The position numbers and the translations under genes are program-made. A stretch of DNA of 64,000 bases from Fidelibacterota bacterium (lineage in GTDB: Bacteria; Fidelibacterota; UBA8477; JABMPR01), in NCBI GenBank assembly GCA_018650795.1, contig JABIFG010000095.1, forward strand, positions 1 to 64,000. Direction: 5' to 3'. Shown in pieces: positions 6,177 through 41,236 of the stretch (its first letter is position 1; each line of letters starts with the position of its first letter). Below the pieces are notes generated by a model. It was not told the origin of the DNA, did not search any database, and worked only from the letters and a program-made list of their open reading frames with translations.

Positions 6177-8183
6177 CTAATACCCTGGTGACCACAATGC
6201 GATTAATGATCTGGCTTGTTTGTACACATTCTCCACAGTAATACCAAATTTTTCAGCAAGGATGGCTCCAGGGGCTGATGCACCAAAATGATCGATGCCA
6301 ATAATCTTGCCCTCGCGACCTACAAATTTTTCCCACCCTATAGAACAACCGGCCTCCACAGCGAGACGCGCATGGCATTCTGCTGGAAAAACAGAGACTT
6401 TATAGGCATCATCCTGCTGTTCGAAAAGCTCCCAGGACGGAAAACTTACCACGCGGACCTTTTTGCCTTCCTGGGCAAGCCTTTTACCAGCCTCCAGCGA
6501 GACCCACACTTCTGAACCACTGGCCATAATAATGATATCATGACATGCAGCTGAATTTTCCCAAATCGTGTAGGCTCCCTGCTTAAGGTTTTCAGCCGAG
6601 GCCAAGACCTTGCGATCAAAAATGGGCAGATTTTGGCGTGTTAAAAGCAGGGCTGTCGGTCCGGATTTATTTTCCAGGGCAGCCACCCACGCCTCCTTGG
6701 TCTCAGTCGCATCCGCAGGACGAATAACTGTCACATCAGGTGTAATGCGTAGACTCATGAGTGTTTCCACAGGCTGGTGAGTAGGTCCATCTTCACCGAC
6801 ATAAATGCTGTCATGCGTATAAACATAAATCACAGGTAAATTCATCAATGCAGCCACCCGGGTTGTTGGTCGCACATAGTCAGCAAAGACCAAAAATGTG
6901 GCTCCGTAAACACGAAATCCACCATGCAGCTGGATGCCATTCATGATAGCGCCCATACCCGTTTCCCGTACTCCATAATGCAGGTTACGACCTTCGAATG
7001 AATCCTTGCCGATATCACCCCAGCCTTTGAGATACGTGTTGTTGGAAGGTGCCAGATCAGCAGATCCACCTACGAGGTATGGAACAGCCTTCGCAAGGTC
7101 CTGCAAGACCTTTCCAGAAGCGGATCGAGTTGCCATGGAGCCACCAGCTTCGAAATCCTCTATCTTACTGGCCAGATCAGTTGGAACATCTCCTCGCAAG
7201 CATAACTCCCATTCAGCAGCTTTTTCTGGGTGAGTCGATAAGTATGCAGTGAAAAGATCATTCCACGCTTGCTCGCGCTGCAGGTTTACGGTCGCAAGTT
7301 CAGTGAAGGTTGTCCTAACCTCTTCAGGCACGAAGAATTTCTCAGGTGACATATCAAGAGCTGCCTTGGTGAGTGCGATTTCATCTTCTCCCAGGGGTGC
7401 ACCATGTGCCTCGTGTGACCCCGCCTTGTTGGGAGATCCAAAAGCGATAGTTGTATTACAGATGATCACTGAAGGCTTACTGGTTTCATCCTGAGCCATT
7501 TGAATGGCAGCGCTGATGTCATCATAGTCATGCCCATTGACGCGTTGCACGTGCCAGTCATAGGCCTCCATGCGCTTTTCAACATCATCGGTGTAGGTGA
7601 TGCGGGTATCACCCTCAATGCTGATATAATTCTCATCATAAAACAGGATCAGCTTCCCCAATTGATGATTTCCGGCCAGCGAGAAAGCTTCGTGGGAAAT
7701 ACCTTCCATAAATTCACCCTCAGAAGCGATAACATAGGTAAAATGATCTACGATCTTGTGCTCCGGAGTATTGAAACGTGCTGCCAGCATTTTCTCGGCG
7801 AGTGCCATACCAACCGCATTGCCACAACCTTGACCCAGGGGCCCCGTTGTTACTTCCACACCTGGTGTATGTCCATATTCAGGATGACCAGCAGTTTTAC
7901 TGCCCCACTGGCGGAAGCTCTTAAGCTCATCCATGGATAGATCATAGCCTGAGAGATGCAGCAAGCTGTATATCAGCATTGAACCATGGCCGGCAGAAAG
8001 AACAAAGCGATCGCGATCAGCCCATTCAGAATTCTGGGGATTATGCTTTAAATATTTTGTCCATAAGACACTGGCGACATCTGCCATTCCCATAGGAAGA
8101 CCGGGGTGACCGGAGTTAGCGGCTTGAATACCATCCATAGCAAGTCCGCGTATTGTGTTGGCGACATGTTGAAGATTCAGCAT
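6177..8183 (-). CDS. tkt: Transketolase
   Basis: Full-length transketolase (668 residues; family usually about 660-670), a thiamine-diphosphate enzyme moving two-carbon units between sugar phosphates in the non-oxidative pentose phosphate pathway. Visible motifs: NSGHPG with H26, AGHGS with H66, TAGHPE with H100, [16 protein letters not shown] with the cofactor-activating Glu, and [11 protein letters not shown]. The metal-binding motif usually written GDG (or SDG) reads SEG at 154-156, so the Mg ligand Asp155 is Glu here; N185 and I187 of the same motif are kept. The start follows ACAGGAGTAGAA, a strong ribosome binding site. It lies 65 nt downstream of an organophosphate antiporter on the same strand and may be co-transcribed, which would link imported sugar or glycerol phosphates to the pentose phosphate pathway. 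Confidence 0.95.
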
Positions 8184-8248
8184 TTCTACTCCTGTAATTT
8201 CTCTCTGATAAATCAGTAATAATATCTATAAATCATATTTCCAGAGAT

Positions 8249-9601
8249 CTAGGCTCGGGGTTTGATCTTCCAGGTAAATGCCAATAGGATTATCCCCATG
8301 ACTGTGGAAGCTAAGATACTAAAAATAACAAAATTCCAACCGGTCTCGAGACCATAAAGCTCACCATAATGATCAACCATCCAGCCAAAGCCCTTCGCCT
8401 GAACTGAACGACCGATATAACCAAAAAGGCCGATAAACCCAGCAGCCGTACCGACGGCTTTTTTAGAAGTAAGGTCAAGACCTGATAAAGCCAGTAACAT
8501 GACTGGTGGATAGATAAAAAAGCCAATGATGACGAGCATAGCCATGTCAAAATTCAAATTGCCCGGGGGGTTCGCATAGAGACCATAAAAGGCAAAGAGG
8601 ATGGGGATCATACACAAAAGACTTACCATACCACGGCGACCTCCCAGACGGTCGGACAGCCAGCCCATGAGCAGGGTTGAAGGTATTGCCCCGAATTCAA
8701 TGAATAGAATGGCAACGCCACCACTCATGAGGGTAGCTCCCTTCATTTCCCTGAGATACATGGGACCCCAATCCAGCATACTATAGCGTACGATATAAAC
8801 AAAAAAGTTGGCGATGGCTACGATCCACAGCATCTTGTTCTTTAGAATATTGTCAATAAAAAGTGCACGCGTTGAGAGCTCTTCTTCGTGTTTGAGCCCC
8901 TCTTTTTTCTCAAGCTCTGAATAGTCATTCTTGTACTCTTCAATCGGTGGTAATCCCAATGATTGAGGGGTATCACGTAAACGCCAGTACAGATAAGCCG
9001 AACCCAATAATGCAATGGTTCCCGGGAAGTAGAAAGCAGCCTGCCAGCCAAAACTGGACGCCGCATAGGCCGCCATGATTCCTGCCAGCCCCCCTCCTAC
9101 ATTCGTCGCAACATTCCAGATGGCGAACATAGAACCACGTTCTCTTAAACTATACCAGTGACCAAGTGAGCGACCACAAGGTGGCCAGCCCATACCCTGG
9201 ATAAAGCCATTCAGGGACCATAAAAGGAGGTGGATCCAGTATACTTCCATCCCACCAAAGGCAAAATTCACCAGCCCAGATAGTAAGAGACCCGTAGCCA
9301 TAAATTTCCGAGGATCAGAACGATCTGAAAGCGAGCCCATAAAAAATTTCCCAAGACCATAAGCAATAGCCGAAAGCGCCAGGATATTTCCGATCATATT
9401 GTGATCGTAGGACAGGGCGGACCCAATATCTTTGCTCACCGTAGACAGATTGTTACGTACCAGATAGAACATCACATAACCCATAAATGTGGATTCCATG
9501 GTACTCCAGCGATAGCGCGTATAGGTCTTCGCGATTTTATCTTCAGCTATACGGTCAATATGTGGAGCAGGTGCGTAAAACTTTTTAATCCAATCTAGCA
9601 T
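8249..9601 (-). CDS. OPA-family organophosphate:phosphate antiporter (GlpT/UhpT-like) 1
   Basis: 450 residues, twelve predicted membrane segments, major facilitator superfamily, organophosphate:inorganic phosphate antiporter branch. The two phosphate-binding arginines of GlpT have clear counterparts: R49 in FYLVRNN (GlpT R45) and R272 in VRYSMLDWGP (GlpT R269). The central-loop motif GRSLGHWYSLRERG holds H148, matching GlpT H165, followed by WNVATNVGGG. The residue after the first Arg is Asn, where GlpT and the second copy in this window have Lys, so the substrate may differ. Known role: uptake of glycerol-3-phosphate or sugar phosphates in exchange for phosphate across the inner membrane; exact substrate cannot be read. 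It precedes transketolase and follows a beta-propeller lipoprotein gene. The second copy at 30635-31987 is a clear paralogue. Confidence 0.9.
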   Translation of the reverse strand: MLDWIKKFYAPAPHIDRIAEDKIAKTYTRYRWSTMESTFMGYVMFYLVRNNLSTVSKDIGSALSYDHNMIGNILALSAIAYGLGKFFMGSLSDRSDPRKFMATGLLLSGLVNFAFGGMEVYWIHLLLWSLNGFIQGMGWPPCGRSLGHWYSLRERGSMFAIWNVATNVGGGLAGIMAAYAASSFGWQAAFYFPGTIALLGSAYLYWRLRDTPQSLGLPPIEEYKNDYSELEKKEGLKHEEELSTRALFIDNILKNKMLWIVAIANFFVYIVRYSMLDWGPMYLREMKGATLMSGGVAILFIEFGAIPSTLLMGWLSDRLGGRRGMVSLLCMIPILFAFYGLYANPPGNLNFDMAMLVIIGFFIYPPVMLLALSGLDLTSKKAVGTAAGFIGLFGYIGRSVQAKGFGWMVDHYGELYGLETGWNFVIFSILASTVMGIILLAFTWKIKPRA

Positions 9602-9721: not shown

Positions 9722-10621
9722 TCAACGCTGAATCTGGTATATATAAACCTCGTGTATCTCGTGATCATAACCCGGGTAAAATCCCTGGGGAATTCCCTGA
9801 ATGATCCTGGCGCCACGATTCATCAAGACGGCCATTTTTTCCGCCTGTGGTAAAATGCATAATCCTTCAACTTCCCCAGCGCGCTGGAATTCGGCCAGAG
9901 TCTTTTCAAGCACAACAGATGAAGACGCCTCTGAATCCACTTCCCCTAGTTGAATGATATAGACATGATCCGGATTATTAAGCTCAGCATCACCATCGTC
10001 CGCAGTCAAATACAGGTATTCTCCGGCAACATTAATGCCCTGGATCTGGAAGGGAATAGGATCCAGGCTCAGATGGCCGAGATAGTCTCCTGTAATCAGA
10101 TCGTAGCGATACAGACGCTCACCCTTCAGCCAGTCAGCTAACCAGATGCACTGGTTCAGCGTATCCACGGCAATGCCACAGACCTCTACCTGGCCAGAGT
10201 TTGCTTCCCAGGGGATGGAGCGTTTGACCCTGAGCGTTTCCAGATCATAAATAACGATCTGTATGTTTTCTCCACGTCCATTGACAAAGTTTTCAGCTCC
10301 GGCATAGAGCTCACCATTGAAGACATCTATGTCTCCAAGATGATTCATGGCTCCCTCCAGCCCCTCAAATGGTGAGGTGTTACTCAGGAGCAGCTCACCG
10401 GACATCGAGTATTTATACAGAGCTTTGCTGCCACTGATATAATAGGCCTTGCCATCACTGGCCACACCCTGCCGACCTTCTACCTGAAAAACAGTATCCA
10501 GGGTATAGTTAGACGGGCTGTGTGGTCGGTGATCTGGCCGTGGTGTACAGGTCCAGAAGACCATGAGACCGATCAATAATCCTGAGAGCTGTAGGCCCCT
10601 TTTGAGGCTATAAATAGCCAA
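9722..10621 (-). CDS. Beta-propeller lipoprotein
   Basis: 299 residues. The N-terminus (GLLIGLMVFWTC) is a lipoprotein-type signal with the lipid Cys at about residue 26; the -1 residue is Thr, which is a weak lipobox. The rest shows repeated strands typical of a six-bladed beta-propeller of the NHL/SdiA-regulated kind: GVASDGKAYYIS, LGDIDVFNGELY, CGIAVDTLNQCIW, IQGINVAGEYLYL, VEGLCIL. The start is TTG at 10621, only 1 nt after the stop of the upstream phosphodiesterase gene, and the next in-frame ATG would destroy the signal, so TTG with translational coupling is preferred. Function is unknown; the location suggests a periplasmic or outer-membrane partner of the phosphodiesterase, for instance in ligand binding. 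That is inference. Confidence 0.75.
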   Translation of the reverse strand: MAIYSLKRGLQLSGLLIGLMVFWTCTPRPDHRPHSPSNYTLDTVFQVEGRQGVASDGKAYYISGSKALYKYSMSGELLLSNTSPFEGLEGAMNHLGDIDVFNGELYAGAENFVNGRGENIQIVIYDLETLRVKRSIPWEANSGQVEVCGIAVDTLNQCIWLADWLKGERLYRYDLITGDYLGHLSLDPIPFQIQGINVAGEYLYLTADDGDAELNNPDHVYIIQLGEVDSEASSSVVLEKTLAEFQRAGEVEGLCILPQAEKMAVLMNRGARIIQGIPQGFYPGYDHEIHEVYIYQIQR

Positions 10622-10622: not shown

Positions 10623-11408
10623 TTATTTCTTCTCGCTCAAGAATGTCCTCCAGCGATCGGGATGATTGGTAATTGGGCTATCAATTTTCAGTTTGTACAA
10701 TCGTTCCATCTCTTCCGGCTCATCAACTTTGCCCCAGACATGAACTTTTTTGCCAGCAGCATGGGCTTTTTCCACAAATTCTTTGGTGACCAACTTATTC
10801 TTGACACTTAAAAGGTCCACATCAGCTACAAATACATCCCTGTCTTTAGGCATCTTTGAAAAAATGTATCCCACAGTAAAAGATGGATCGAGGGCTCTGA
10901 TCTTGTCCACAGCATCCAGATTAAAGGATGTGATGATACACTGATCGGCAAAATTCTTTTCCTGAAGTACTTCCAATACATGCTCGGTGAGACCGTCCTG
11001 ATGACCATTCATCTTGATCTCAACATTTAGCTTCATACGTCCGTTTACCGAATCAATAATATCCGCAAATAAGGGGATGGGTTCGCCTGCATAGGCTTCA
11101 CTCTTCCAGGATCCCACGTCAAATCCTACAATACTGTCATAAGGCATATCCCAAACATTGGATGAATCCCCTGCAGTACGGATATAATTTTTATCATGGA
11201 AGAGGACCAATACATCATCGGCAGTTTCTTGAACATCCAGTTCGGCATATTCAGCGTTCATCTCCATGGCCAGAAGATAGGCTGACATTGTGTTTTCAGG
11301 AGCCACTCCTGAGGCGCCCCGATGGGCTGTTATAAGAATCTCATGTTGACTACATCCAGTCATGATAATGAGCATAAGACTAATAATTATAGATTTGATG
11401 ATGTTCAT
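10623..11408 (-). CDS. Glycerophosphodiester phosphodiesterase lipoprotein 1
   Basis: Hydrolyses glycerophosphodiesters to glycerol phosphate plus an alcohol. Starting at ATG 11408 (preceded by CGGAGATCGT) the protein has a clean lipoprotein signal MNIIKS...IIMTGC with lipid Cys19. The GDPD motifs follow: HRGASG..PENT (catalytic H29, E38), YAELDV (E56, D58) and FHDK (second catalytic H71). The TIM-barrel length, about 260 residues, is normal. An upstream in-frame start at 11489 would bury the signal and overlap the neighbouring gene, so it was not chosen. The gene lies between a SurA-like lipoprotein gene and the propeller lipoprotein gene, 1 nt from the latter. A second GDPD is at 34365-35255. 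The export signal implies that the substrate is met outside the cytoplasm. Confidence 0.93.
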   Translation of the reverse strand: MNIIKSIIISLMLIIMTGCSQHEILITAHRGASGVAPENTMSAYLLAMEMNAEYAELDVQETADDVLVLFHDKNYIRTAGDSSNVWDMPYDSIVGFDVGSWKSEAYAGEPIPLFADIIDSVNGRMKLNVEIKMNGHQDGLTEHVLEVLQEKNFADQCIITSFNLDAVDKIRALDPSFTVGYIFSKMPKDRDVFVADVDLLSVKNKLVTKEFVEKAHAAGKKVHVWGKVDEPEEMERLYKLKIDSPITNHPDRWRTFLSEKK

Positions 11409-11451
11409 ACGATCTCCGTTTTTTATCAATTTTCTTGTCTGAGGGTTTTCT

Positions 11452-12981
11452 CTACAGCCCCCAAATGGGATCCGGTGTAGCAAAAGCACTTCTTAAATAT
11501 GGCAGGCCCAACTTAAAGAAATAGGTATCAAGTCCCTGCGCCTTACCGGGATTATCAATTTCAAGTTTACTTAACTCATCAGAGAATACTTCGATTTCAA
11601 CGTCACTTTTTAAGCTGTCGACTCTTTCATCCAAAACTTCTTTGGACCTCAAAATGGTCAGACGTTGCTGCAGTTGATTCCAACGTGCATCCCCGGGTTT
11701 GAGGGAGAGCTGTTGAGCCTGAATATAGTTTTGCATTTCCAGGTCGTCAGGTGTTGTCACGAGCTTAACTTGCTCAATGAAAGCCTGAACTATCAGCTTC
11801 TCTTCCCAGCTTGCCAACTCAGACTGAATGGTACGATCCCGATCAAAGCCGCGTTGGATACCTTCCTTTTCAAGATAATAGTCCCGTAGGGCAATACCGA
11901 TCTCCTGACGAAGCTCAGCGGCAAAATCGTGTTTACTCTCAGCCTCGATATAAAAGGGTTTGAGCAGGAGTTGTTCCAGTAGAATCTGGACCGTGATATC
12001 ACCCTGATTGCTGCGAACCGCTACTTCTTCCCCACGGCGGTCAATTTCATTAAGAATTGCTTCTGCTGTGATCTCATATTCGGGATTTTGGTGATTGGAG
12101 AACGCCTGTTCCTCCAAGGGCAGGTTCACATACAAATCGTAGAGTGAGTTAACCATAAAGGCGAAGACTTCACCCTCTACTTGGATATCCAGTGGGTCCA
12201 TGAAGTCTTTAATAAAAAGGCGTGACGACGCGAGGCGTTTGCGATGATCCAGTACCTTGTAGAATCGATCATGATATTTTTGATAATCATTGGGGTCAAT
12301 GATCTCTTGAAGCCGATCATTGCAGTATGCTATGGCATAAGCATTCCCGATGGAGATGATGTCTGAATAGGTGTTGACCTTCAAGTCGAATAGTTGAGCG
12401 TTGAGAGGTTCTGGTAATTCACCTTCTCGTACATAATCCGTTGAATCAAAAATAATGATGGATCGTATGTCGTTATCAAGTGCTGACTGCACACGATCAA
12501 ATTCAAGCCCGCCGTCCAGTTTTTGCAGGCACTGCATCATAGCATTCCTGTCCTGGCTGATGATAAAATTGGCACGTATACTCAAGCGAGACTTTTCAAT
12601 CGCTTCTTTTATTTCCTCATCAGTCACTACGATTTGATCATGCACTTCGCTTTTGAACATCTGCTCAACCACGAGCTCTTGTTTTAACAGACGCAAGGCC
12701 TTGGTGATGCGCATATTCGAACTATAGATACTGTCATTTTTAAGCTCTGCCGCCAACAGTTCCTCAGCGATCATGGCATCCAGGAAACTTTGCATTGGGT
12801 GGTCAATATCTTTCAGTGATGAGGAACCCGCGTTGTAGCTGTTGATGAATTCCTGGGTTCTTATCTCGGTCTGTCCAACTTTTGCCAGAATTTCCCCGCC
12901 CAGTTGATCCGTTTTCTGCTCACAGGCAGTGAGTAGCATAAGCAGTAAGATGGGCAAGCGTTTAAATTTGCATAAGGTCAT
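11452..12981 (-). CDS. SurA/PpiC-like periplasmic chaperone lipoprotein
   Basis: About 509 residues. From ATG 12981 the protein begins with a lipoprotein signal (KRLPILLLMLLTAC, Cys at about residue 20). A SurA-N-like segment follows (VGQTEIRTQEFINSY...LLAAELKND) and then a degenerate parvulin-like region (about 125-230) with TDEEIKEAIEK, GELPEPLNAQLFDLKVNTYSD and an AYCNDRL strand, and a long C-terminal helical part. Known of the family: chaperones or prolyl isomerases for outer-membrane and exported proteins. The parvulin core is divergent, so catalytic activity is doubtful. The start lies 4 nt after the stop of the upstream phosphatase, suggesting coupling. A plausible job is folding the exported enzymes encoded next to it; this is inference. 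Confidence 0.72.
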   Translation of the reverse strand: MTLCKFKRLPILLLMLLTACEQKTDQLGGEILAKVGQTEIRTQEFINSYNAGSSSLKDIDHPMQSFLDAMIAEELLAAELKNDSIYSSNMRITKALRLLKQELVVEQMFKSEVHDQIVVTDEEIKEAIEKSRLSIRANFIISQDRNAMMQCLQKLDGGLEFDRVQSALDNDIRSIIIFDSTDYVREGELPEPLNAQLFDLKVNTYSDIISIGNAYAIAYCNDRLQEIIDPNDYQKYHDRFYKVLDHRKRLASSRLFIKDFMDPLDIQVEGEVFAFMVNSLYDLYVNLPLEEQAFSNHQNPEYEITAEAILNEIDRRGEEVAVRSNQGDITVQILLEQLLLKPFYIEAESKHDFAAELRQEIGIALRDYYLEKEGIQRGFDRDRTIQSELASWEEKLIVQAFIEQVKLVTTPDDLEMQNYIQAQQLSLKPGDARWNQLQQRLTILRSKEVLDERVDSLKSDVEIEVFSDELSKLEIDNPGKAQGLDTYFFKLGLPYLRSAFATPDPIWGL

Positions 12982-12985
12982 TGGC

Positions 12986-15055
12986 TTAATTCTGCACTTC
13001 GATATCAATTTGGGCTGTTGCGCTGGTGGTCTTAACCTGACACGTATAGGTGCCTGCAGGGACCAATATCCCATCCAAATCATCTTTTTTCCAGTGTAGC
13101 CAATAGCGGCCCTGCTGAGCGTGACCATCAATGAGAGATTTGATCAATTTTCCCTGACTGTTGTGAATACTTATATCATAATCGCTTTCGCTGGGCAGGT
13201 CCAGACGAATCATCAGGGGGACCTTCTGAGAGCGTGCCGGATTAACGGTTAGCATTAACACCTCCGGGGGTGTCATATCCACATTTGACAGTTTTCTCGG
13301 ATGCTTATTGATGACGAACTCATCCATGATGTTTTGATCTTTATCCCTGACAGTAAAGCTGAGTTCTGAACTGTCAACATCGATTATACAGTAGTGATAA
13401 TTGTTTTTTCGCTTCCTGATATCAACAATATTGCGGACATTCGTATTCTGGGGACCACCACCGCCACCACTGACGATATGGGTAATGCCATCCACGTAAG
13501 CGCGTTCGTAATCATGAATGTGTCCAGAGAAGTACATGTCCACATCATATTTTTTGAATAGCGGCCAGAGGTACTCCCTGTTCAAAATGTAATCAACAGG
13601 GTAGACTGCTGAGAATATGGGAATATGCCCGGCGACCAACAACCACTCTGCAGCCTGTGCTTCTGGTGATTTGAGCTGTTCTTCAAGCCAGCGAAATTGA
13701 GCACTGCCAGGGGTGATATCAGGAAAATCTCTTTCTGAGTAAGCCGCTAAATTATTATCAATAAAGATGAAAAAGGTATTACCATAAGTAAAACTGTAGT
13801 AGACCTCATGCTCATTCTCCGGGAAAGAAAAGTATTCCTTAAAATACCTGGAATAGGCCGGATTTTGTTCTGGCGAGTCTGCGTACTTTTGACCATAAAG
13901 TGTATTATTCTCATGATTACCAAGAGCTACGTAAACCGGGGTTGAACTGATAAGATCCTGCAGTGGGTTGAAATATTCTGTGTCCCAGTCAGGGCGTAGA
14001 CCACTGTTCACCACATCTCCGGAATTAATCACAAAGTCTGGAGCTTCCTCGGTAATGCTGGCAACAATCTCCTGATGGCGCAGAAAATTCGTTCGATTGT
14101 CTCCGTATAGTGCAAAACGGAAGGGTTCAGAGGCCGATTTTGCTGCCTGGAATTGGACCCAGTCACTCATTAATGTTCCAGAGGTTACCCGGTAGAAATA
14201 CTGCGCTCCAGCTTGTAGACCCGTCAAGGTGAGCTCATGATTGAAGGCCAGGTTTTGAGAGCTGACTACTTGCGTTTCAGTCACTGACAGACCAAATTCA
14301 ACCTGGGAATTCTGAACAAGGTTTGTGCGCCACATAACCACAGCACTGTCACCCAATACATTCTGTAGATAGGGTTTACGATCAAACTGCAGAGCTTGCT
14401 CATCATGTTTGATTTCAAATTTGTCATAAACGCTTATATCATCAAGAAATGAAGCATCATTATGATAGGATGAGAAGCCCACATTACCATGATCAAAACT
14501 GGTATCAGCAATAGCGAAATAGATTTGCCCGTCGAGATAAACTTTGATGGAATCCCCACGGACATCGATACTGATATTAAAGCGACATTCCGGCCACATT
14601 TCTTCAATATGCCCAAGCGTGTGGAACTCTCCATTGATTCGTTTTTCCAGGCGAATCTTGGAAACCTGTGAGGAGAGACTGAATCGGTAATAATTCTGAG
14701 GATCCTGATAGCGAAATAAAACACCAATATAATCGTCATCCGTAGAGACAACATTTGCCGAGAGGGTATAATCCGTCCACTCAGTTTCTCCGGCCACAGC
14801 ATGGGTGCCGAGTTTTCCTTTGCCAATATTGCTGGTCTGAATCAAATATCCCTGATCAACGAACCAGTTGGAGATCTCATCCTCCACATCATCATGGATG
14901 ACCCAGTCGGAGAAGTCAGCATCTTCAAAATCTTCATGCCACAATAGTTTTGGCTCAGCTGTTGTTCGATGGTGATCTATCCAGATAGCGCAGGTGTTTA
15001 TCCCGGCAAGGATGAGGGTCACCATGATGCTGAAGAGAAAGAACTTCCGGCTCAT
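12986..15055 (-). CDS. Secreted purple-acid-phosphatase-like metallophosphoesterase, copy A
   Basis: 689 residues. A signal peptide or anchor is followed by a LamG/DUF1080-like beta sandwich (about 37-212), a purple-acid-phosphatase N-terminal FN3-like domain (about 225-315; VMWRTN, QYFYRV) and a calcineurin-like metallophosphoesterase domain with GDNR, SGDVVN, GNHEN, AGHIP and GHIHDYER in order (about 315-560). These supply the two-metal site residues of the superfamily, although the first motif reads GDN rather than the usual DxG. The C-terminal beta sandwich (about 610-689) matches the FlgD-like part of a sorting tail but has lost the YPNPFN core found in copy B, so it may be retained differently. 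It lies 5 nt after copy B. Likely role: release of phosphate from extracellular phosphoesters; the substrate is unknown. Confidence 0.88.
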   Translation of the reverse strand: MSRKFFLFSIMVTLILAGINTCAIWIDHHRTTAEPKLLWHEDFEDADFSDWVIHDDVEDEISNWFVDQGYLIQTSNIGKGKLGTHAVAGETEWTDYTLSANVVSTDDDYIGVLFRYQDPQNYYRFSLSSQVSKIRLEKRINGEFHTLGHIEEMWPECRFNISIDVRGDSIKVYLDGQIYFAIADTSFDHGNVGFSSYHNDASFLDDISVYDKFEIKHDEQALQFDRKPYLQNVLGDSAVVMWRTNLVQNSQVEFGLSVTETQVVSSQNLAFNHELTLTGLQAGAQYFYRVTSGTLMSDWVQFQAAKSASEPFRFALYGDNRTNFLRHQEIVASITEEAPDFVINSGDVVNSGLRPDWDTEYFNPLQDLISSTPVYVALGNHENNTLYGQKYADSPEQNPAYSRYFKEYFSFPENEHEVYYSFTYGNTFFIFIDNNLAAYSERDFPDITPGSAQFRWLEEQLKSPEAQAAEWLLVAGHIPIFSAVYPVDYILNREYLWPLFKKYDVDMYFSGHIHDYERAYVDGITHIVSGGGGGPQNTNVRNIVDIRKRKNNYHYCIIDVDSSELSFTVRDKDQNIMDEFVINKHPRKLSNVDMTPPEVLMLTVNPARSQKVPLMIRLDLPSESDYDISIHNSQGKLIKSLIDGHAQQGRYWLHWKKDDLDGILVPAGTYTCQVKTTSATAQIDIEVQN

Positions 15056-19150: not shown

Positions 19151-19171
19151 TTTTTCCTCGGTTCTTAGATA

Positions 19172-19207
19172 ACAGGTGGATGATTGCTGATGCAATCATC
19201 CACCTGT
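19172..19207. terminator. Perfect 16-bp stem-loop between two surface-protein genes
   Basis: ACAGGTGGATGATTGC and its exact reverse complement enclose a TGAT loop. It lies 30 nt after the stop at 19237 and 22 nt before the TTG start at 19150. On the minus strand only a weak T-rich tail (TTATCT) follows, so it may attenuate, or protect the 3' end of the upstream message, more than terminate. Confidence 0.6.
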
Positions 19208-28796: not shown

Positions 28797-28941
28797 ACAC
28801 ATTCCTTGTTTGCAATCCACATCGCTTAGCAACACCCAAAAATCGTTTTGTTTGACATCTGGTAACCACAAATCTTAACCTAACAAAAGGTAGCTTGACT
28901 CATGCAAATATCTCACCATCAGTTTTCAATTTTTTTAATCT

Positions 28942-30157: not shown

Positions 30158-30185
30158 GGTTGGTTAGAAAAGGATTCAATCAACC
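30158..30185. terminator. Hairpin between convergent genes
   Basis: GGTTGGTT pairs with AATCAACC (one G-U pair) around a 12-nt loop, overlapping the end of the RpiB-like gene. It could terminate both convergent transcripts, but lacks a T tract. Confidence 0.35.
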
Positions 30186-32036: not shown

Positions 32037-32879
32037 TCAATTCGAATTCCCCCGGGCTAAAGCAAGTTGCTCACCCAACTCCTTGACACTTGGGAACACA
32101 GCATCCGGCTTGAAGGGACTATCATCAACATCTTCAAGGGTGGCTTCACCGGTGAGCACCAATATCCCGACTGATCCACAGTCATAGGCCATGGCAATAT
32201 CTGTATAGAGTCGATCACCGACCATACCCAGCTCGTGCTTCTCAAGACCATGTTCAGCCATAAGACCTTCAAGCATGAGGGCATTGGGTTTTCCTGGGAC
32301 TGCTTCAGGCGTTTTTCCTGTAGCGGCCTCGATGGCAGCACAAACAGCTCCACAATCTACCAGGACCAATTTTTCATCTGTGGGACAAATATTATCGGGA
32401 TGAGTTGCAATATAAGGTTTCCCTTGATCGATCCAGTAGCTTGCAACAGTAAGCTTGGCATAGTTCAGTGTAGTATCAAAACCAACGATAACCAGCTCAG
32501 GTTCATATCCAGGTTCATCGGGAACAACCTCATAACCAGCATCCCGAAATTCCTGCTTGAGACCTTCTGTCCCCAGGATCATAACGCGTTTGGAGGCAGG
32601 ATGTATTTTTTCCAGATATTTCAGGGTCGCCAGAGCGGAAGTGAAAATACTTTCTGTTGAAGTCTTCAGCCCCAGTTTTGCGAGTTTTTCTGCATACTCA
32701 CTGACGCTCCTTGAGCTATTGTTGGTCAAAAAGGTGTAACCGACCCCAATCGCTGTAAGACCTTCAAGAAAACGCTTTGTAAAGGGAAACAGGGTTGTGC
32801 CTTTGTAGATCGTCCCGTCCATATCCAGGGCGAGATGCTTGATCCTCTTAAGTTTTGCAAGGGCTTCAGAAGATAACAT
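32037..32879 (-). CDS. araL: HAD-IIA (NagD/AraL-type) sugar-phosphate phosphatase
   Basis: About 280 residues. HAD motifs are clear: motif I DMDGTIYKG with nucleophile D19 and acid D21, TNNSS (motif II), GKPNALML with the Lys of motif III, and MVGDRLYTDI (motif IV). The C2-type cap region carries VDCGAVCAAIEAATGK. The start is ATG 32879 inside the upstream araM gene, preceded by GGAGTCTGAAG, so the two genes overlap by 14 bp and are translationally coupled. In Bacillus subtilis araL (NagD-type phosphatase of low specificity) and araM (glycerol-1-phosphate dehydrogenase) are also adjacent, in the arabinose operon. Likely role: removing excess glycerol or sugar phosphate; the substrate is inference. 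Phosphoglycolate phosphatase is an alternative. Confidence 0.85.
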   Translation of the reverse strand: MLSSEALAKLKRIKHLALDMDGTIYKGTTLFPFTKRFLEGLTAIGVGYTFLTNNSSRSVSEYAEKLAKLGLKTSTESIFTSALATLKYLEKIHPASKRVMILGTEGLKQEFRDAGYEVVPDEPGYEPELVIVGFDTTLNYAKLTVASYWIDQGKPYIATHPDNICPTDEKLVLVDCGAVCAAIEAATGKTPEAVPGKPNALMLEGLMAEHGLEKHELGMVGDRLYTDIAMAYDCGSVGILVLTGEATLEDVDDSPFKPDAVFPSVKELGEQLALARGNSN

Positions 32880-34364: not shown

Positions 34365-35255
34365 CTATTTTTTCATAAAATTCTGGTACAGCTCTACCGT
34401 CATCAGCGGATAATCTGTAGCAAAGGAGCGAACGCCCAGTTCCATAAGTTGTACATAGACCTCTGGTTCCACCATTTTCCAGGGCAGCACCTGAAAAAGG
34501 ATTCCCTGGCCACTGACCTCCTCCCGTCTTTCCTCAAGAAATTTAGGTGACGGCTTGAAGGGCTGATCACTCTCGGCATCAACTTCCATCACATGTATCT
34601 GGAGGGTTGTAATGCCTAGATAATTATTCTCACGGATGGAAGCGAAAGTCTTTTCAATGTTCTCCTGACTACCACCAATCCACAGCAAGGAAAGAGATTC
34701 TGGAATTCTAGAGTGCCAGTCCATGATCAAGTTATGATGCTTGGTCGTAAATATTATCTGTCTTTCCAAGCCGTAGGACCTGACCATCAATGCCAGACGA
34801 TCCATATCAATTTTTTTATAATCGAGATAGATAAACCGTTCAGGATGACCTGACATGGCTTCAAAGACACTTTCCAGAGTCGGGATTCGTTGGGTCTGGC
34901 CACCACGAGAAATACCGACATCAAGGGTTTGGGCAACTTCCAGGGTCATTTCCTCAAAGGGAACATCAATGAGAGAATCTGAAGTTGTAGGAGCCAGACG
35001 CTTTGCCGTTTTATCATGCATGCAGATGATGATATCATCTTGAGTCGTTCGAATATCTGCTTCAGGAATAATGCCCATTTCCCAAGTTTCGATGAAGGTC
35101 TCAAGTGTATTTTCAGGAATTCTCAGACCACCACCACGATGTGCCTGGATAGGCATAACACCTTGTTCAGAATACACTTTTACAGGTGACCCGCTAGGCA
35201 CGGCGCAGCCTATCAATAAAACAATCACCACGAAAATTAAATTCAACCATTTCAC
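34365..35255 (-). CDS. Glycerophosphodiester phosphodiesterase lipoprotein 2
   Basis: 296 residues. Lipoprotein signal IVVIVLLIGC with lipid Cys17, then GDPD motifs AHRGGG..PENT (catalytic H39, E48), PEADIRT (E65, D67) and MHDK (H80). Only about 260 residues of TIM barrel remain, typical for the family. The start is GTG at 35255, with TGGGAGATATGGTTC upstream. Unlike GDPD 1 its central part (KKIDMDRLALM, TTKHHNLIMDW) is divergent, so substrates may differ. It has its own promoter region with a long dyad (35317-35352) and is upstream of the araM/araL pair on the same strand, so a glycerol phosphate released outside the cytoplasm could be processed by the next gene after import. Confidence 0.92.
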   Translation of the reverse strand: MKWLNLIFVVIVLLIGCAVPSGSPVKVYSEQGVMPIQAHRGGGLRIPENTLETFIETWEMGIIPEADIRTTQDDIIICMHDKTAKRLAPTTSDSLIDVPFEEMTLEVAQTLDVGISRGGQTQRIPTLESVFEAMSGHPERFIYLDYKKIDMDRLALMVRSYGLERQIIFTTKHHNLIMDWHSRIPESLSLLWIGGSQENIEKTFASIRENNYLGITTLQIHVMEVDAESDQPFKPSPKFLEERREEVSGQGILFQVLPWKMVEPEVYVQLMELGVRSFATDYPLMTVELYQNFMKK

Positions 35256-35430: not shown

Positions 35431-38400
35431 TTACTTCAAGTACATCATTTTGATGACTTCGGTATACTCTCCTGCTTGAATTCTTGCAAAGTACATTCCG
35501 GCAGCCAGGTTATATCCCCGGGCATCTTGACCAGTCCAGTGCAGATCATACCATCCTGCTTGCTGGGTGCTGTTCACCAGAACATTTACCTGTCTTCCAG
35601 TGATATCAAATATCTGCAATCTCACATCAGCGACTTCCGGTAAAGCATAACGGATCGTCGTTGTAGGATTGAAGGGATTCGGGAAGTTTTGATCCAATGC
35701 ATATACTGTTGGCAGCACACCATCATGGATACCCACAAAGGTTGAGACGAAGCTTACCGTTGAATTTGCTTCAATGGCATTGCCAAGCATATCCCAGATA
35801 TTGCTCATGGTAATGGTGTACTCAAGATCCACTGTGAGCGGTGTTGTCACCAACAGAACAGTGGCACCATCAGCTTCGGCATCCAGAGGTTCACCAATTC
35901 CATTATTGAATGAGTAGTTGGCGAGACGCTCACCAGTAGCAGGATGGACGATCTCTGAGAAGGTCAGCATCACACTGGTGTCACTGGTTGCAACAGCAGA
36001 TACAATTGTGGGTCCGGTAACATCGAAGTTCTCCCAACCTGGAGTACCGCCTTCTTCAAGACTGGGTATCCAACTCAATATGGTCCAGTTGAGACCGGAA
36101 TTATCAGCCAGAGCCAGTGAAGGACCCGTTCCATCCGCTTCAGGAGCGTGGACAAAGTCATCTGTTGATTCTGCGGTTCCATCGTCATAGTGCATGAATG
36201 ACATCATGATATCATCAGCATTGAACAGAATACAGTTGTCCTTTGAATCACTAAACCCGATTGCTGCATCAGTAATGTCGAGATCTGATTCAAAATCATC
36301 TGGCAGAGCAGATGGGGAACCAGCATAGCTCAATAGGACATAGTAGTCACCGGGTTCCAAAATCGTTCCCGCTGGAACGCCAGCACGACCGTGTGTAGGA
36401 TTGTCATCCATGATATACCAGCCACTAATATCAACACTGACATCATCAGCATTGTACAATTCAACAAACTCATATTCCAGGGTATCTGCGCCCAGGGCGT
36501 TGTACATGATCTCATTAACCAGTACTCTTGGATAATCGGGTGCAACAGTGACATTTGCAGCACCAGGTGTGCCACCGTAGAAGTAACTGGGCTGCCAGCT
36601 TTCAGCATCATTGCGATCCATTGAAGGATCGATGAGTTCTACTGAACATCCTGTACCCCAGCGTGCTGGTGCAGGAAATGTAGTGACATCATAGTCGACG
36701 AAATCTGTGAGGTTACCTAGATCATCCCATAGATAGATCATGTCACCACCACCATTGTTCAGGTTCCAGATATGGTTACGAGTGGTATCAGTATAGTCGA
36801 TGGCAGCCTGCAAATTTGGTGTAAAGTGCAGTGGCCAGCCCTTTTCCTCGCCCTCACCATAAACATAGATTGTGAAATATTCACCGGGAGGTATGACTGT
36901 ATCAATACTATCAGGTATCACCATCAAGGCATGTGATTCAGGTTCATCTCTCAATGACCACCCCAGAATATCTATCGTATCAGCGGAAGCATTGAAAAGT
37001 TCAATAAATTCATTGTCATAGTATTCCGAATTATACTGGAATTCATTGATCACAATCTTATCGACATAGGTCTGATAAGTGAATGAAACCACACTGCCAG
37101 CAGCAATGATATTTCCAGAAACATCAGCGACGTTGCTAACCGTGACTTCGTAATCAGTAGCATGTGTTAAATAAGCTACAGACAACTCAACTTTATAGTC
37201 ACTCCAAACGACTGCTGTGGGTGTGCCAATAGCATTGTTCACTGAATAGTTGGCCATGACTACAGCAGAAGTTGAGTCAATGGATTCAGAAAAAACTACT
37301 GTGATAATGGAATCACCTAAAGCATAGGCTGAAACCAGGGTTGGAGGAAACTCATCCAGGGGTTCATCACCTGGTGTACCACCAATTCCACCACTGGCTT
37401 TCCAGTTGAGGGGATCATGATTTGATAGCAGGGGATCTATTAATTCCAGTGAATATCCAAGACCATCTGCTCCAGCTGCATGTTCAAACATCTCACCGGC
37501 ACCACCATCATCATAATACATATAGCTAACAAGATTACTGTCTGCATCAAATAGAAGTGGATTGTCTTGAGAATCACTAAAATCAACATCACTGGCCCGG
37601 AAATCAAAATCAGCTGTAAATGGGACAGTAAATGTATCAGAGGATACATTGTTCATAATAGTCAGATATTCTCCAGGACCGATTTTCGTCCCTTCAGGAA
37701 ATGGAATTCTCTCATGTAGTGGATTATCATCTAAGGTAAACCAGCCACTAATATCTACAGTGTCAGTTTCAGTATTCAGAATCTCAATCCATTCCACTTG
37801 AGCAGAATCAACAAGTGAAGAGTGATACATAACCTCGCTGATCACAACACCAGGATATACAGGGGCTACAGTAATGTTCTCAATACCAGGCGTTCCACCA
37901 TAGAAATAACTGGCTTGCCAGTTGGTAGGATCATCATTGCTCAGCGCAGGGTTGATCACTTCAACAGTTTGTCCCATACCTCTATAGGCTTCAACTGGCA
38001 CGGTTCCTTCGATACTTTGGTCATACGCAATACTATCGACCAGATTACCCGCTTTGTCCCACATATAAATAATGTCATTACTATTATTCAAATTCCATAA
38101 ATGGAATCTGCTGGTGTCTGCGTAATTGATCGCGGCATTCAAATCGGGTGTAAACTGAATGGGCCATCCATTTTCTTCGCCTTCACCATATGCATATACC
38201 GTAAAATAATCGCCAGGGGCCAGCACATTGTCTGAGGTAACACCAGCAATTATAGGTTCATGAGAGGTGGGTTCATCCCTGAACATCCAACCCGTGATAT
38301 CAATGGTCTCAGCAGAGGCATTATAAATTTCAAACCACTCATTATCACTGCCTTCTCCATTATATACAAATTCGGTAAGTACAATTTTTCCCGTGTAGTC

Positions 38401-39291
38401 ATAATAGGAATAGTCAATTGTGCTATTGGCACTAATTGTTAAGCTACTGTCAAGGTTCTTAACATTATTTACGGTAAGTGTATATACTGTCTCATGAACC
38501 ATTGCAGCTGTAAAACCCAATTCTACTGTATTCGCTCCGCTAAGAACTGCAGTTGTAGGGGCACCATAGGCGCCTGCGTCATAATTTGCAAGCATCTCTG
38601 CTGTCACAGTATCCACAGGGTGAGAAAAGGTTACATTAATGGTTGAAATATCGAGTGTCTGAACATTTTTCAGGCTAAAATCAGTTGCTGAATGAGTAAA
38701 CCATACTCTGGGGTCAAAGCCATCTGGTGCGTTCACAGTTCCAGCGCCTGCACCACCATCATTATCTATTTCCCATTCTGTAGGGTCAAAAACTGGATTG
38801 CCAGTTGTTACAGTTGAAACTCTTTGGGCCCGACCATCTTCAAATTCATGATCTGTACCTGAACCATCTTCACCAGGCCGTCCATAAAAATCGACAACTT
38901 CCCAGGCTGGGTTCAGTAAAAGAATGTTATCGTCACCGTTGCTATCTGCGGGTCCAGCGTTTACATCACTTTGATCTGCAGCCATTCCATAGATTTCCAG
39001 GAAAGGACCTGCGTTGTTACAGACAATGAAAAAGCCACCTGCAGGAATCACACCGCGCAGTGGAATTCTTGATGTCGTGGTCATGGTGGTATTTCCATTT
39101 GTGTATCTACCCAGTGACCAACCGTCGCTCAAATTGACGGCTTCGGTGCCATTATTGAATAGCTCAACAAATCGTGCAGTCGACTCATTATTTGGATCTG
39201 CAAGCTCTGTGATAAAAATATCACCCATTGCGATGCTCGTCAGGGCAAACATCAATACTGAAGAACATAGTCCTCGTAGCAGTGTTTTCAC
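35431..39291 (-). CDS. Five-lamin-tail-domain secreted protein with Ig-like repeats and sorting tail
   Basis: 1286 residues. A signal peptide is followed by lamin tail domain 1 (about 22-170), an SbsA-type Ig-like domain (about 197-290), LTD2 (about 297-430), LTD3 (about 479-620), Ig 2 (about 654-735), LTD4 (about 744-880), LTD5 (about 919-1060), Ig 3 (about 1092-1170) and a type IX-style tail with NFPNPFNPTT ending in KMMYLK (about 1192-1286). The LTD2-LTD3-Ig and LTD4-LTD5-Ig blocks are evident internal duplicates; YFYGGTPG..N(I/V)TVAP.YP occurs in both. The start is GTG at 39291, fixed by a near-perfect ribosome binding site AAAGGAGGAAAAC. No catalytic domain is seen. A shared operator-like 14-mer upstream links it to glpD and the TonB operon, so it may be a surface component of the same system (inference). 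Confidence 0.88.
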   Translation of the reverse strand: MKTLLRGLCSSVLMFALTSIAMGDIFITELADPNNESTARFVELFNNGTEAVNLSDGWSLGRYTNGNTTMTTTSRIPLRGVIPAGGFFIVCNNAGPFLEIYGMAADQSDVNAGPADSNGDDNILLLNPAWEVVDFYGRPGEDGSGTDHEFEDGRAQRVSTVTTGNPVFDPTEWEIDNDGGAGAGTVNAPDGFDPRVWFTHSATDFSLKNVQTLDISTINVTFSHPVDTVTAEMLANYDAGAYGAPTTAVLSGANTVELGFTAAMVHETVYTLTVNNVKNLDSSLTISANSTIDYSYYDYTGKIVLTEFVYNGEGSDNEWFEIYNASAETIDITGWMFRDEPTSHEPIIAGVTSDNVLAPGDYFTVYAYGEGEENGWPIQFTPDLNAAINYADTSRFHLWNLNNSNDIIYMWDKAGNLVDSIAYDQSIEGTVPVEAYRGMGQTVEVINPALSNDDPTNWQASYFYGGTPGIENITVAPVYPGVVISEVMYHSSLVDSAQVEWIEILNTETDTVDISGWFTLDDNPLHERIPFPEGTKIGPGEYLTIMNNVSSDTFTVPFTADFDFRASDVDFSDSQDNPLLFDADSNLVSYMYYDDGGAGEMFEHAAGADGLGYSLELIDPLLSNHDPLNWKASGGIGGTPGDEPLDEFPPTLVSAYALGDSIITVVFSESIDSTSAVVMANYSVNNAIGTPTAVVWSDYKVELSVAYLTHATDYEVTVSNVADVSGNIIAAGSVVSFTYQTYVDKIVINEFQYNSEYYDNEFIELFNASADTIDILGWSLRDEPESHALMVIPDSIDTVIPPGEYFTIYVYGEGEEKGWPLHFTPNLQAAIDYTDTTRNHIWNLNNGGGDMIYLWDDLGNLTDFVDYDVTTFPAPARWGTGCSVELIDPSMDRNDAESWQPSYFYGGTPGAANVTVAPDYPRVLVNEIMYNALGADTLEYEFVELYNADDVSVDISGWYIMDDNPTHGRAGVPAGTILEPGDYYVLLSYAGSPSALPDDFESDLDITDAAIGFSDSKDNCILFNADDIMMSFMHYDDGTAESTDDFVHAPEADGTGPSLALADNSGLNWTILSWIPSLEEGGTPGWENFDVTGPTIVSAVATSDTSVMLTFSEIVHPATGERLANYSFNNGIGEPLDAEADGATVLLVTTPLTVDLEYTITMSNIWDMLGNAIEANSTVSFVSTFVGIHDGVLPTVYALDQNFPNPFNPTTTIRYALPEVADVRLQIFDITGRQVNVLVNSTQQAGWYDLHWTGQDARGYNLAAGMYFARIQAGEYTEVIKMMYLK

Positions 39292-39457: not shown

Positions 39458-39472
39458 TATAATGATTGCTAT

Positions 39473-41236
39473 TTATGCTAAAACCATTTTTTCCGTTTGG
39501 CCTGGCACCTTGACCTGATGCCGATATCCTTGTCTGGCCATAGTATCGAGCAAGGTTTTTTCCTGGATCCTTGCTTGTTCTGGCGTCCAACCCAGCAAGG
39601 ATGATACCAGCTCAATAACAGGAGGATTGACAGAGCCAATACTCCCATCCTCGTGAGAGCCCAGATCAGTCCGTCTGAAAAAGATATCTGTCAGAGATTG
39701 CGCGTGTTCCCATTCAACGGCGTAGGCTATCTCTGCGAATATTTCTGGACGTTTGGGGTGGATTAAATGCGTCAGATCTCGGCGCTTGCCAATATTCATG
39801 AGCACATTCAGAGCTCGTGATCCGTAGAAATCAATTAAATGAGCGATAGTTGCATCGGTGATTTTGTGGGTCGCTTGAAGATCCTTGATCTGGTTTCGGA
39901 TTTCAGTCGTCATCCGTGCCCCAGGTAATTTATAGCTTCTTGTGGAACACTTTGCTCTCACATTGAGGTGCTTGCAGATAAGGTCGCCCGTTTCCTCTGC
40001 CAGGCTTCTGTAGGTAGTCAGCTTCCCACCAATGATTGAATATACACCTGTAGTACCCGTGACTTTCTGATGATCGAGGATGATGTGTTTACGGGTTACG
40101 CTGCGTTCCTTTTTGCCGGGCTCATAGAATAGGGGGCGAATTCCAGAATAAGTATAAACAACATCTTCTTCAGAGAATGATTTTCCTGGAATGAGGAAAT
40201 TCAGTTCATCCAATAGATATTTTATCTCATCATCGCCAGCATGGACATTGTCCATATCACCATCATAAAATATGTCCGTGGTACCAACCAGATAGTAATC
40301 CCGCCAGGGTATAATGAAGTAGGGGCGAAAGTCTTGTCTGGCTTCAACATATATGGCGTCAGTTGGACCGCCTTCGAATTTTTTAATCAGGAGGTGACTA
40401 CCCTTTGTACCCCCCATTTTACGTCCAACAGCTTCACCCAATGATACATTCACCAGATCCACGAAGGGTCCACCTGCATTGATAACTTTTTGAGCCTGAA
40501 TCTGGAAATTATCACCAGTAAGCACATCTTTGACTTCCAGCAAATGAGGGCGATTACTCGTACCCGTATCCAAATCCACGACTTCACTATAATTCAATAC
40601 CTGTGCCCCGGCTTCCCCGGCACCCTCAATCAACTCTGCAGCTAGCCTTTCAGGAAAGGGAACCTGGCAATCGTAGTATGATAATACGGCAGACAAGCCA
40701 TCAGGATTGATGGCAGGATCGATCTTCCCCTTGTTACGATTCTTTTTGCTATTGCGCATAAACTTGTGATTCGGAAGAGATTTGTCGAATGATAGAATGT
40801 CATACAGAGTCAAACCTGCATGTACCATCCAAGCTGGGCGTTTGCTGTGCTTAAAGACTGGAACATTCAGGTTTAGCGGGTGCACCAAATGAGAAGCATT
40901 TGATAACAGGCGCTCACGTTCAGCCATGGACTCACGCACAAGCGATAGCTCGAAATACTCCAGATACCGCAATCCTCCATGAATGAGCTTGGTGGAGGCG
41001 CTGGTTGCATACCAGCCAAAGTCTTTCTTTTCAAGCAGAATGGTCTTTACACCCCGTAATGCCAGATCAAGTGCAATTCCTGCTCCATTGATACCGCCAC
41101 CAATAATGGCTACATCAAAAACCTGATCTTCTATATGTCCTATTCGAGATTTATTGGGCTTGATGATTTTATTCCCCTCCCTTGGAGTATCTTCTACTGC
41201 TTTTTGGTTCTGGTCGTATTTGCTTGAATCTTGCAT
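39473..41236 (-). CDS. glpD: FAD-dependent glycerol-3-phosphate dehydrogenase
   Basis: 587 residues. Oxidises sn-glycerol-3-phosphate to dihydroxyacetone phosphate at the inner membrane and passes electrons to quinone. The FAD motif GGGINGAG (46-53), LLEKKDFGWYATSASTKLIHGGLRYLE (split across 67-93), the KGSHLL, DFRPYFIIPW and GTTDIFYDGD motifs, GGKLTTYR and the C-terminal helical domain are all present. The N-terminus has about 35 extra polar residues before the Rossmann fold. Site C of the shared 14-mer overlaps the first codons, and the promoter (TTGACT-N17-GAAAAT) lies just upstream. No glpF or glpK accompanies it, so the glycerol-3-phosphate is presumably imported or released from phosphodiesters. 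Divergent from the SGNH hydrolase gene. Confidence 0.95.
   Translation of the reverse strand: MQDSSKYDQNQKAVEDTPREGNKIIKPNKSRIGHIEDQVFDVAIIGGGINGAGIALDLALRGVKTILLEKKDFGWYATSASTKLIHGGLRYLEYFELSLVRESMAERERLLSNASHLVHPLNLNVPVFKHSKRPAWMVHAGLTLYDILSFDKSLPNHKFMRNSKKNRNKGKIDPAINPDGLSAVLSYYDCQVPFPERLAAELIEGAGEAGAQVLNYSEVVDLDTGTSNRPHLLEVKDVLTGDNFQIQAQKVINAGGPFVDLVNVSLGEAVGRKMGGTKGSHLLIKKFEGGPTDAIYVEARQDFRPYFIIPWRDYYLVGTTDIFYDGDMDNVHAGDDEIKYLLDELNFLIPGKSFSEEDVVYTYSGIRPLFYEPGKKERSVTRKHIILDHQKVTGTTGVYSIIGGKLTTYRSLAEETGDLICKHLNVRAKCSTRSYKLPGARMTTEIRNQIKDLQATHKITDATIAHLIDFYGSRALNVLMNIGKRRDLTHLIHPKRPEIFAEIAYAVEWEHAQSLTDIFFRRTDLGSHEDGSIGSVNPPVIELVSSLLGWTPEQARIQEKTLLDTMARQGYRHQVKVPGQTEKMVLA

Follow-up and report, generated by a model that had tools for sequence, protein, structure and literature searches.

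The window analysed here is a stretch of 64,000 nucleotides from a marine Fidelibacterota bacterium (assembly GCA_018650795.1, contig JABIFG010000095.1, positions 1 to 64,000; contig C178 of our genome G000, a 4.42 Mb assembly in 355 contigs that is 91.5% complete), and between positions 6177 and 41236 it carries a block of genes around AraM, a glycerol-1-phosphate-dehydrogenase-like polyol phosphate dehydrogenase. We propose that the locus serves to scavenge carbon from polyol phosphates and that its AraM arm would act most likely on a four-carbon (C4) compound, D-erythritol 4-phosphate, with glycerol phosphates as further substrates; the proposal is tentative, and we give it somewhat less than an even chance. 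The main point of interest is the pairing of AraM with an isomerase of the RpiB family. An earlier note on this DNA had read the block as a locus that imports glycerol phosphates of both configurations, possibly from archaeal lipids, and sends both to dihydroxyacetone phosphate. Profile searches found every gene class that it listed, in the family it named and where it had placed it, and its list omitted a SorC/DeoR-type regulator (29191-30150, plus strand) and a GDSL lipase (41353-42036, plus strand). The note's reading finds partial support: it appears right in kind, as to scavenging and oxidation, and too narrow or unproven as to glycerol only, both enantiomers and archaeal lipids.

AraM (32866-34278) belongs to a tightly packed run on the minus strand, in the order GDPD2, AraM, HAD-IIA phosphatase, GlpT-family antiporter 2, and isomerase. 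The first gene encodes a glycerophosphodiesterase-family lipoprotein (GDPD2, 34365-35255; PF03009, 59 bits) and is separated by a gap of 86 bases from AraM (PF13685, 112 bits; cut-off 28). The AraM frame overlaps that of the HAD-IIA phosphatase (AraL/PGP-like, 32037-32957; TIGR01460, 120 bits, above cut-off) by 92 bases as listed, or by 14 if the phosphatase begins at an inner ATG at 32879, which, judged by eye from the translation, is probably its true start. A gap of 49 bases leads to antiporter 2 (30635-31987; 379 bits with the glpT model, below its cut-off), and this gene overlaps by 4 bases that of the isomerase (30180-30638), the last in the run. The SorC/DeoR-type regulator (PF04198, 206 bits; also in G001, G049, and G093) separates the AraM run from a second minus-strand run headed by a TonB-dependent receptor gene, from which it diverges.

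The best solved relative of AraM is 9h4x (2e-36). Aligned with this structure, AraM presents an Asp/His/His set and an SRPASG(A/G)EH motif, which we take to be the metal ligands and the phosphate site, respectively; D187, H267, and H287 are kept in all 12 sequences compared, and R260 in 10 of 10 in another alignment. With the NCBIfam equivalog model NF002022, the score is 170 bits, below the cut-off of 413. The three other PF13685 matches in the source genome are, by eye, AroB in a shikimate operon, an AroB-like enzyme in a sugar cluster, and PurE. At L046 (G000:C230), an AroB-like gene lies beside FGGY-like kinase, aldolase-like, and radical-SAM-like genes, again by eye. At L068, L069, and L071, relatives of AraM annotated as sn-glycerol-1-phosphate dehydrogenase read SHPGSMGEH or SNHGSMGEH; since they lack the SRPASG motif, the name is doubtful there.

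The four-carbon reading of the AraM arm comes from the isomerase. It had been described as RpiB-like, and it does fall in the RpiB family; its unusual residues, which had been passed over, set it apart from an ordinary RpiB. Of the three RpiB-family genes in the source genome, the two that lie elsewhere retain His10, His99, Arg133, His134, and Arg137 (E. coli numbering); the locus isomerase has Asp10, Ser99, Gly133, Ser134, and Lys137. In the RpiB of Leishmania, whose residues we matched to those of E. coli by their offset from the catalytic Cys, His11, Arg137, and Arg141 anchor the phosphate, and a change of His102 abolishes activity, according to PMC4783025. We surveyed 49 RpiB-family genes in 29 genomes and classified 38, leaving aside ten long copies (frames of 471-489 amino acids) and one gene from G049. 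Asp10 together with Ser99 occurs in four of the 38, all in genomes with AraM, and His10, His99, and His134 are kept in the other 34. Three of the four genes lie inside the locus (G000, G001, and G049), and the fourth, on a 3 kb contig of G076, is 71% identical to that of the window.

In a midpoint-rooted tree of 18 proteins, the locus isomerase falls in a clade of 11 members with support of 100/98, the inner forks being partly open. The clade takes in the isomerases of G000, G001, and G049 (the G076 copy was left out of the tree), together with those of Labrenzia, R. leguminosarum, and Shinella from operons that are of the erythritol type by gene content, one from a Rhizobium OiaX cluster, one from an unannotated S. 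fredii record, one from a Pantoea cluster with a transketolase, and two from Rubrobacter plasmids. All 11 have Asp or Ser at position 10 and Ser at 99 and 134, with position 134 of G001 uncertain on account of ambiguous bases. The five annotated members without AraM have a triose-phosphate-isomerase-like gene in the same cluster, as the LerI-DerI sequence predicts (LerI and DerI as defined in PMC10733421). DerI, or EryI, converts D-erythrulose 4-phosphate to D-erythrose 4-phosphate. Because the isomerase falls in this erythrulose-4-phosphate (DerI-like) clade, the AraM arm is read as a four-carbon route. On the same grounds of residues and clade, we rejected the isomerase as an ordinary RpiB, despite its passing the general RpiB model. 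Elsewhere in the family, an RpiB-type gene with Asp for the catalytic Cys66 and Ala for Thr68 is seen in seven genomes (L114, L172, L173, L174, L179, L180, and L181), and the one at L114 (G000:C37) is fused, by eye, to an apparent deoxyribose-phosphate aldolase domain.

In the route that we infer, the glycerophosphodiesterases, the purple-acid phosphatases, and the GDSL lipase would cut phosphodiesters and esters outside the cytoplasm and so free polyol phosphates, which the GlpT-type antiporters would exchange inward for phosphate; the gain would thus be carbon, not phosphorus. AraM would oxidize polyol phosphates of sn-1 (D-glycerol-3-phosphate-like) handedness, and in the glycerol case it would turn sn-glycerol 1-phosphate (G1P) into dihydroxyacetone phosphate, with GlpD taking the sn-3 form in two species. 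sn-G1P is the same compound as D-glycerol 3-phosphate, as given in PMC7086022, and its C4 homologue, obtained by adding one D-configured carbon, would be D-erythritol 4-phosphate. Oxidation of the latter by AraM at C2 would yield D-erythrulose 4-phosphate, and the locus isomerase would convert this to D-erythrose 4-phosphate. The HAD phosphatase may remove overflow or side products. Triose-phosphate isomerase has one match in the source genome, with one each in seven of the eight genomes searched and none in the eighth, and no second triose-phosphate isomerase of the LerI/EryH type was found among the profile matches in the source genome. With a single match, a route that enters straight at erythrulose 4-phosphate is the most economical interpretation. 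Dihydroxyacetone phosphate as the only destination, which the earlier note had assumed, looks too narrow, as the isomerase points to a C4 ketose phosphate besides.

The closest AraM found outside the phylum, at 45-46% identity, is on Rubrobacter plasmids (L066, L067), where a dihydroxyacetone kinase gene is followed by those for a HAD-IIA phosphatase, AraM, a same-clade isomerase, and FGGY kinases; a GlpD/GlpO homologue lies downstream of these. These cassettes thus share with the locus the type of phosphatase, the isomerase clade, and the closest outside AraM, but in the stretch shown they have kinases instead of the phosphodiesterases and antiporters of the locus. AraM, a HAD-IIA phosphatase, and an altered isomerase recur together in two phyla that are far apart, and this is the strongest evidence for a joint action of the three. 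Plasmid contexts of AraM were examined in nine of the 45 records with an AraM match. Six alphaproteobacterial plasmid loci have a SorC-type regulator (6/6), an FGGY kinase (6/6), a HAD-IIB phosphatase (5/6), a sugar importer (5/6), and a GlpD homologue (4/6, the gene tables being incomplete), and this setting too looks catabolic; in Priestia, the plasmid AraM lies in an arabinose cluster. At L060, a Boseongicola AraM stands, partly by eye, beside a SorC regulator, an FGGY kinase fragment, a sugar ABC importer, and a SIS-domain gene. Among seven distant AraM loci, one has a HAD-IIA neighbor, and two have a FAD-oxidase-type gene adjoining AraM.

The gene cluster is more than a chance arrangement, to judge from its conservation, a check proposed earlier that came out in favor of the neighborhood. 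G001, another species of the genus, has counterparts of 20 of the 21 genes (the block plus the lipase) on a single 52 kb contig with their order unchanged, and the sole gene without a counterpart there (contig C17) is the transketolase. In another family of the phylum, broken contigs of G039, G049, G076, and G093 carry subsets of the locus, which include type IX secretion system (T9SS) proteins, purple-acid phosphatase, lamin-tail protein, GDPD2, AraM, HAD phosphatase, GlpT, isomerase, regulator, and receptor. Parts of the gene order of the core thereby persist in two families. Window-type AraM is present in six of 245 genomes of the phylum (Ca. Neomarinimicrobiota): G000, G001, G039, G049, G076, and G093. 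A search of genome contigs with the single AraM protein gave no match; with an AraM alignment it gave four loci, three of which are the Neomarinimicrobiota relatives G049, G076, and G093. The AraM of G039 (L055, C205:8114-8419) is a remnant interrupted by in-frame stops, next to which the HAD phosphatase looks intact, and in G093 (L053, C132), AraM, HAD, and two GlpT genes, the second matched only from residue 209, are followed without a break by the regulator. GlpD (PF16901) was found in four of the 29 genomes searched, in G000 and G001 with the locus and in G020 and G021 without it, whereas the other family's four AraM genomes gave no match. The pattern suggests a core made up of AraM and its run, to which one genus has added GlpD and the lipase.

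Several observations weigh against a C4 substrate. A natural erythritol phosphate ester that could serve as a source was not identified, and the glycerophosphodiesterases, GlpT, GlpD, and the GDSL lipase would each suggest glycerol phosphates in the first place. The locus isomerase scores 155 bits with the NCBIfam DerI model, below its cut-off of 240, and 166 bits with the general RpiB model NF004051, above its cut-off of 135; moreover, DerI activity may be present in the ordinary RpiB of E. coli too, according to PMC10733421. Since the Leishmania His11 mutant stays active and the His138 mutant retains some activity (PMC4783025), only the lost counterpart of His99 is a strong argument against ribose 5-phosphate. 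Neither of the two RpiB genes of G039 is of the Asp10/Ser99 type. The AraM run of G093 lacks both the isomerase and GDPD2 in a contiguous stretch of an assembly that is 72% complete, and no PF02502 match was found anywhere in that assembly. Finally, no DerI-like isomerase was found in the fetched flanks of the seven distant AraM loci, which are from other phyla (29 reference proteins). Because of these points, the C4 reading is kept short of an even chance, and a substantial if minor share is left to a route for glycerol alone.

That alternative is that glycerol phosphates of both configurations are imported and both converted to dihydroxyacetone phosphate, by AraM and GlpD, the isomerase being unrelated or minor. 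We regard it as unlikely, though it has much to recommend it: the phosphodiesterases, the GlpT arginines, GlpD, and the GDSL lipase are functions of the glycerophospholipid type; G093 has AraM without the isomerase; and AraM shares with G1P dehydrogenases its metal ligands and its SRPASGAEH motif, in the roles that we presume for them. Growth of the marine Phaeobacter sp. MED193 on G1P, with import by GpxB and UgpB, as reported in PMC12718374, is in its favor as well. It leaves a dedicated, residue-altered isomerase unexplained, and the GlpD on which it depends for the second enantiomer turned up in none of the other family's four genomes with AraM. AraM and GlpD do occur together in G000 and G001, but GlpD was found in only these two of the six AraM genomes, so that oxidizing both enantiomers looks like an add-on. 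Nor are archaeal lipids required as the source, possible as they are, since G1P is the head group of phosphatidylglycerol and is also found in the lipoteichoic acid of B. subtilis (both according to PMC7086022); a GDSL lipase beside GlpD would fit ester lipids better than ether lipids. A five-carbon substrate such as D-ribitol 5-phosphate, which AraM would oxidize to ribulose 5-phosphate for isomerization to ribose 5-phosphate, is improbable. The stereochemical rule that leads to D-erythritol 4-phosphate would equally yield D-ribitol 5-phosphate, and membership in the RpiB family, a score above the general RpiB cut-off, and a transketolase at the far end of the block agree with it. However, the His99 counterpart required in ordinary RpiB is lost along with other phosphate-site residues (on the Leishmania evidence in PMC4783025), ordinary RpiB is encoded elsewhere in the genome, and conservation of the locus does not extend to the transketolase.

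Still less probable is that AraM supplies G1P for lipids, either through GGGPS for archaeal-type ether lipids or through PlsY for ester lipids of opposite handedness. The genes for this exist. The source genome encodes GGGPS (L048, G000:C348:292-966; 151 bits; best solved match 4jej, 1e-48), a finding that the earlier note would have counted, along with ether-lipid genes, against scavenging, and a DGGGPS-like UbiA, one of five UbiA genes (L104:1435-2268, G000:C231), although the latter scores 210 bits, below the cut-off of 296. AraM is the only gene of the G1P dehydrogenase type found among the four PF13685 matches of that genome, and PlsY of E. coli and B. subtilis takes both enantiomers of glycerol phosphate, as stated in PMC13400652. 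What speaks against a lipid role is distribution. Of the 100 genomes searched, 73, the source among them, have GGGPS, and window-type AraM was found in just five of these, a remnant included; the AraM matches in G030 and G048 are weak, at 20-25% identity, and a PF13685 match above 65 bits is found in five of the 100. Since GGGPS is widespread and AraM sporadic, GGGPS does not depend on AraM, lipid building as the main role of AraM is unlikely, and we rejected it even though the required genes exist. GGGPS in the phylum would work, if at all, mostly without AraM, and four Cloacimonetes metagenome-assembled genomes with GGGPS lack araM and egsA, according to PMC7852524. AraM, moreover, sits in a phosphodiester uptake run and not beside GGGPS. 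This location, in a run that also encodes a phosphodiesterase, phosphatase, antiporter, and isomerase, and the contrast between AraM in 6/245 genomes and GGGPS in 73/100 support the import-and-oxidize scavenging of the earlier note; an oxidizing, catabolic AraM is thus better supported by the genomic evidence than one that mainly builds lipids. It is possible that imported or AraM-made G1P reaches GGGPS or PlsY. Two heme O synthase-like UbiA genes, both just below cut-off, lie about 4 kb apart at L116 (G000:C216).

The known systems closest to the proposed C4 route are the ery operons of Brucella, Ochrobactrum, and rhizobia, which carry the EryA kinase, the EryB dehydrogenase, EryC, EryH/LerI, and EryI/DerI. 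Like the locus, they have a SorC-type regulator, a dehydrogenase of the GlpD family, and a same-clade isomerase that supplies D-erythrose 4-phosphate. The Brucella route starts at L-erythritol 4-phosphate and needs EryB, EryC, and EryH first (PMC5992420; the pathway is also treated in PMC10190533 and PMC10733421). The locus differs in having AraM in place of EryA, EryC, and EryH, none of which was found among the 20 open reading frames (ORFs) scanned in the block, in a GlpD that is not of the EryB clade, and in a substrate that would enter already phosphorylated through GlpT-type antiporters after extracellular hydrolysis. It is tempting to go further and to see in AraM a D-erythritol-4-phosphate dehydrogenase that replaces EryB, EryC, and EryH, with a handedness opposite to that of EryB and a DerI-like isomerase to complete the path, fed by extracellular phosphodiester hydrolysis in Neomarinimicrobiota and by a kinase in Rubrobacter; this more specific version is doubtful. 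The matches listed in our literature search include no paper that joins a G1P dehydrogenase with erythritol, and among the listed titles and abstracts on erythrulose 4-phosphate or erythritol phosphate, there is no AraM route.

In B. subtilis, AraM and AraL, which presumably pair in the arabinose operon, are likewise a G1P dehydrogenase and a HAD-IIA phosphatase family side by side; the partners in the locus, in contrast, are uptake and isomerase genes, and its AraM is 32% identical to the Priestia homologue, the single Bacillus-type sequence for which a full comparison was made. The GlpQ-GlpT-GlpD system of E. coli resembles the locus in its phosphodiesterase, antiporter, and FAD dehydrogenase and has, to our knowledge, no AraM, isomerase, or surface phosphatases. 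The GpxB/UgpB system shows that a marine bacterium can use both enantiomers of glycerol phosphate as carbon; it differs from the locus in its ABC importers, and the accessible text of PMC12718374 gives G1P catabolism no dehydrogenase.

As to the transporters and glycerol genes, both antiporters keep the GlpT arginines R45 and R269, as had been claimed. Antiporter 1 (8249-9601, minus strand; glpT model 422 bits, below the cut-off of 633; 91% identity in G001) has Thr at the His165 site, and antiporter 2 keeps R45, K80, H165, and R269, in what we take to be the E. coli GlpT numbering. GlpD (39473-41236, minus strand), a FAD-dependent glycerol-3-phosphate dehydrogenase by its score of 367 bits with NF008899 (cut-off 360), keeps R54, Y55, H233, T270, R317, R332, and K354, presumably the active-site positions. 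EryB keeps the same residues, so these do not discriminate; a tree gives no support for the locus GlpD as an EryB, since it lies outside the EryB clade. The GDSL lipase/acylhydrolase gene (PF13472, 73 bits; 68% in G001) diverges from that of GlpD. The absence of glycerol kinase that the earlier note reported is a local one: the 20 ORFs scanned in the block include none, yet GlpK is encoded elsewhere in the genome, at G000:C184:61522-62955 (652 bits; cut-off 590).

The other genes of the block are all on the minus strand. The transketolase (6177-8183; TIGR00232, 878 bits) is over cut-off in two of the eight members of the genus searched, G000 and G015; since it has no counterpart on the G001 contig and is not tied to AraM, it is probably only a neighbor, and we dropped it from the locus. 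Beyond antiporter 1 come a lipoprotein-like protein of unassigned family (9722-10621; no Pfam, NCBIfam, or PDB match; 62% in G001), the glycerophosphodiesterase-family lipoprotein GDPD1 (10623-11489; PF03009, 139 bits), whose N-terminus, like that of GDPD2, is lipoprotein-like by eye, and a protein with weak rotamase similarity (11452-13131; PF13145 below cut-off; 48% in G001). Two secreted purple-acid-type phosphatases follow (12986-15055, with PF00149, PF16656, and FlgD_ig, and 15061-17037, with PF00149, PF16656, and a T9SS tail). Next are a T9SS-tailed surface protein (17162-19195; PF18962) with counterparts in G001, G049, G076, and G093, a T9SS-tailed lamin-tail-domain protein (19237-21831; PF00932, PF13385), a PorV/PorQ-family outer-membrane protein (21864-22937; NF033709, 183 bits, above cut-off), and a large conserved exported protein (22970-26071; no family match; 83% in G001) adjoining the TonB-dependent receptor (26088-28871; PF00593, PF07715; 78% in G001, 62% in G049). 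Between GDPD2 and GlpD lies a T9SS-tailed protein with five lamin-tail domains (35431-39291; PF00932), also near AraM in G001, G049, G076, and G093. Outside the block, the window encodes a surface protein of 1569 amino acids with laminin G, polymorphic-membrane-protein repeats, and a FlgD-like tail (1423-6132), and at 44320-51628 Mrp/ParA-type Fe-S/P-loop ATPases, an FGE-sulfatase-domain protein, and a pyridine nucleotide-disulphide reductase.

The recycling of sn-glycerol 1-phosphate by bacteria is an open question, with uptake by a marine bacterium reported in 2025 (PMC12718374), and the locus is a candidate catabolic route in which AraM would work in the oxidizing direction. The presence of GGGPS in 73 of 100 genomes, against a strong match of the G1P dehydrogenase type in five, sharpens the question of where bacterial G1P originates. 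If the C4 reading is true, the locus would provide a second, shorter path from tetritols into the pentose phosphate pathway and alter the annotation of the AraM family; on the more specific version, many AraM proteins annotated as G1P dehydrogenases would be polyol phosphate dehydrogenases, and there would be an unrecognized environmental pool of tetritol phosphate esters.

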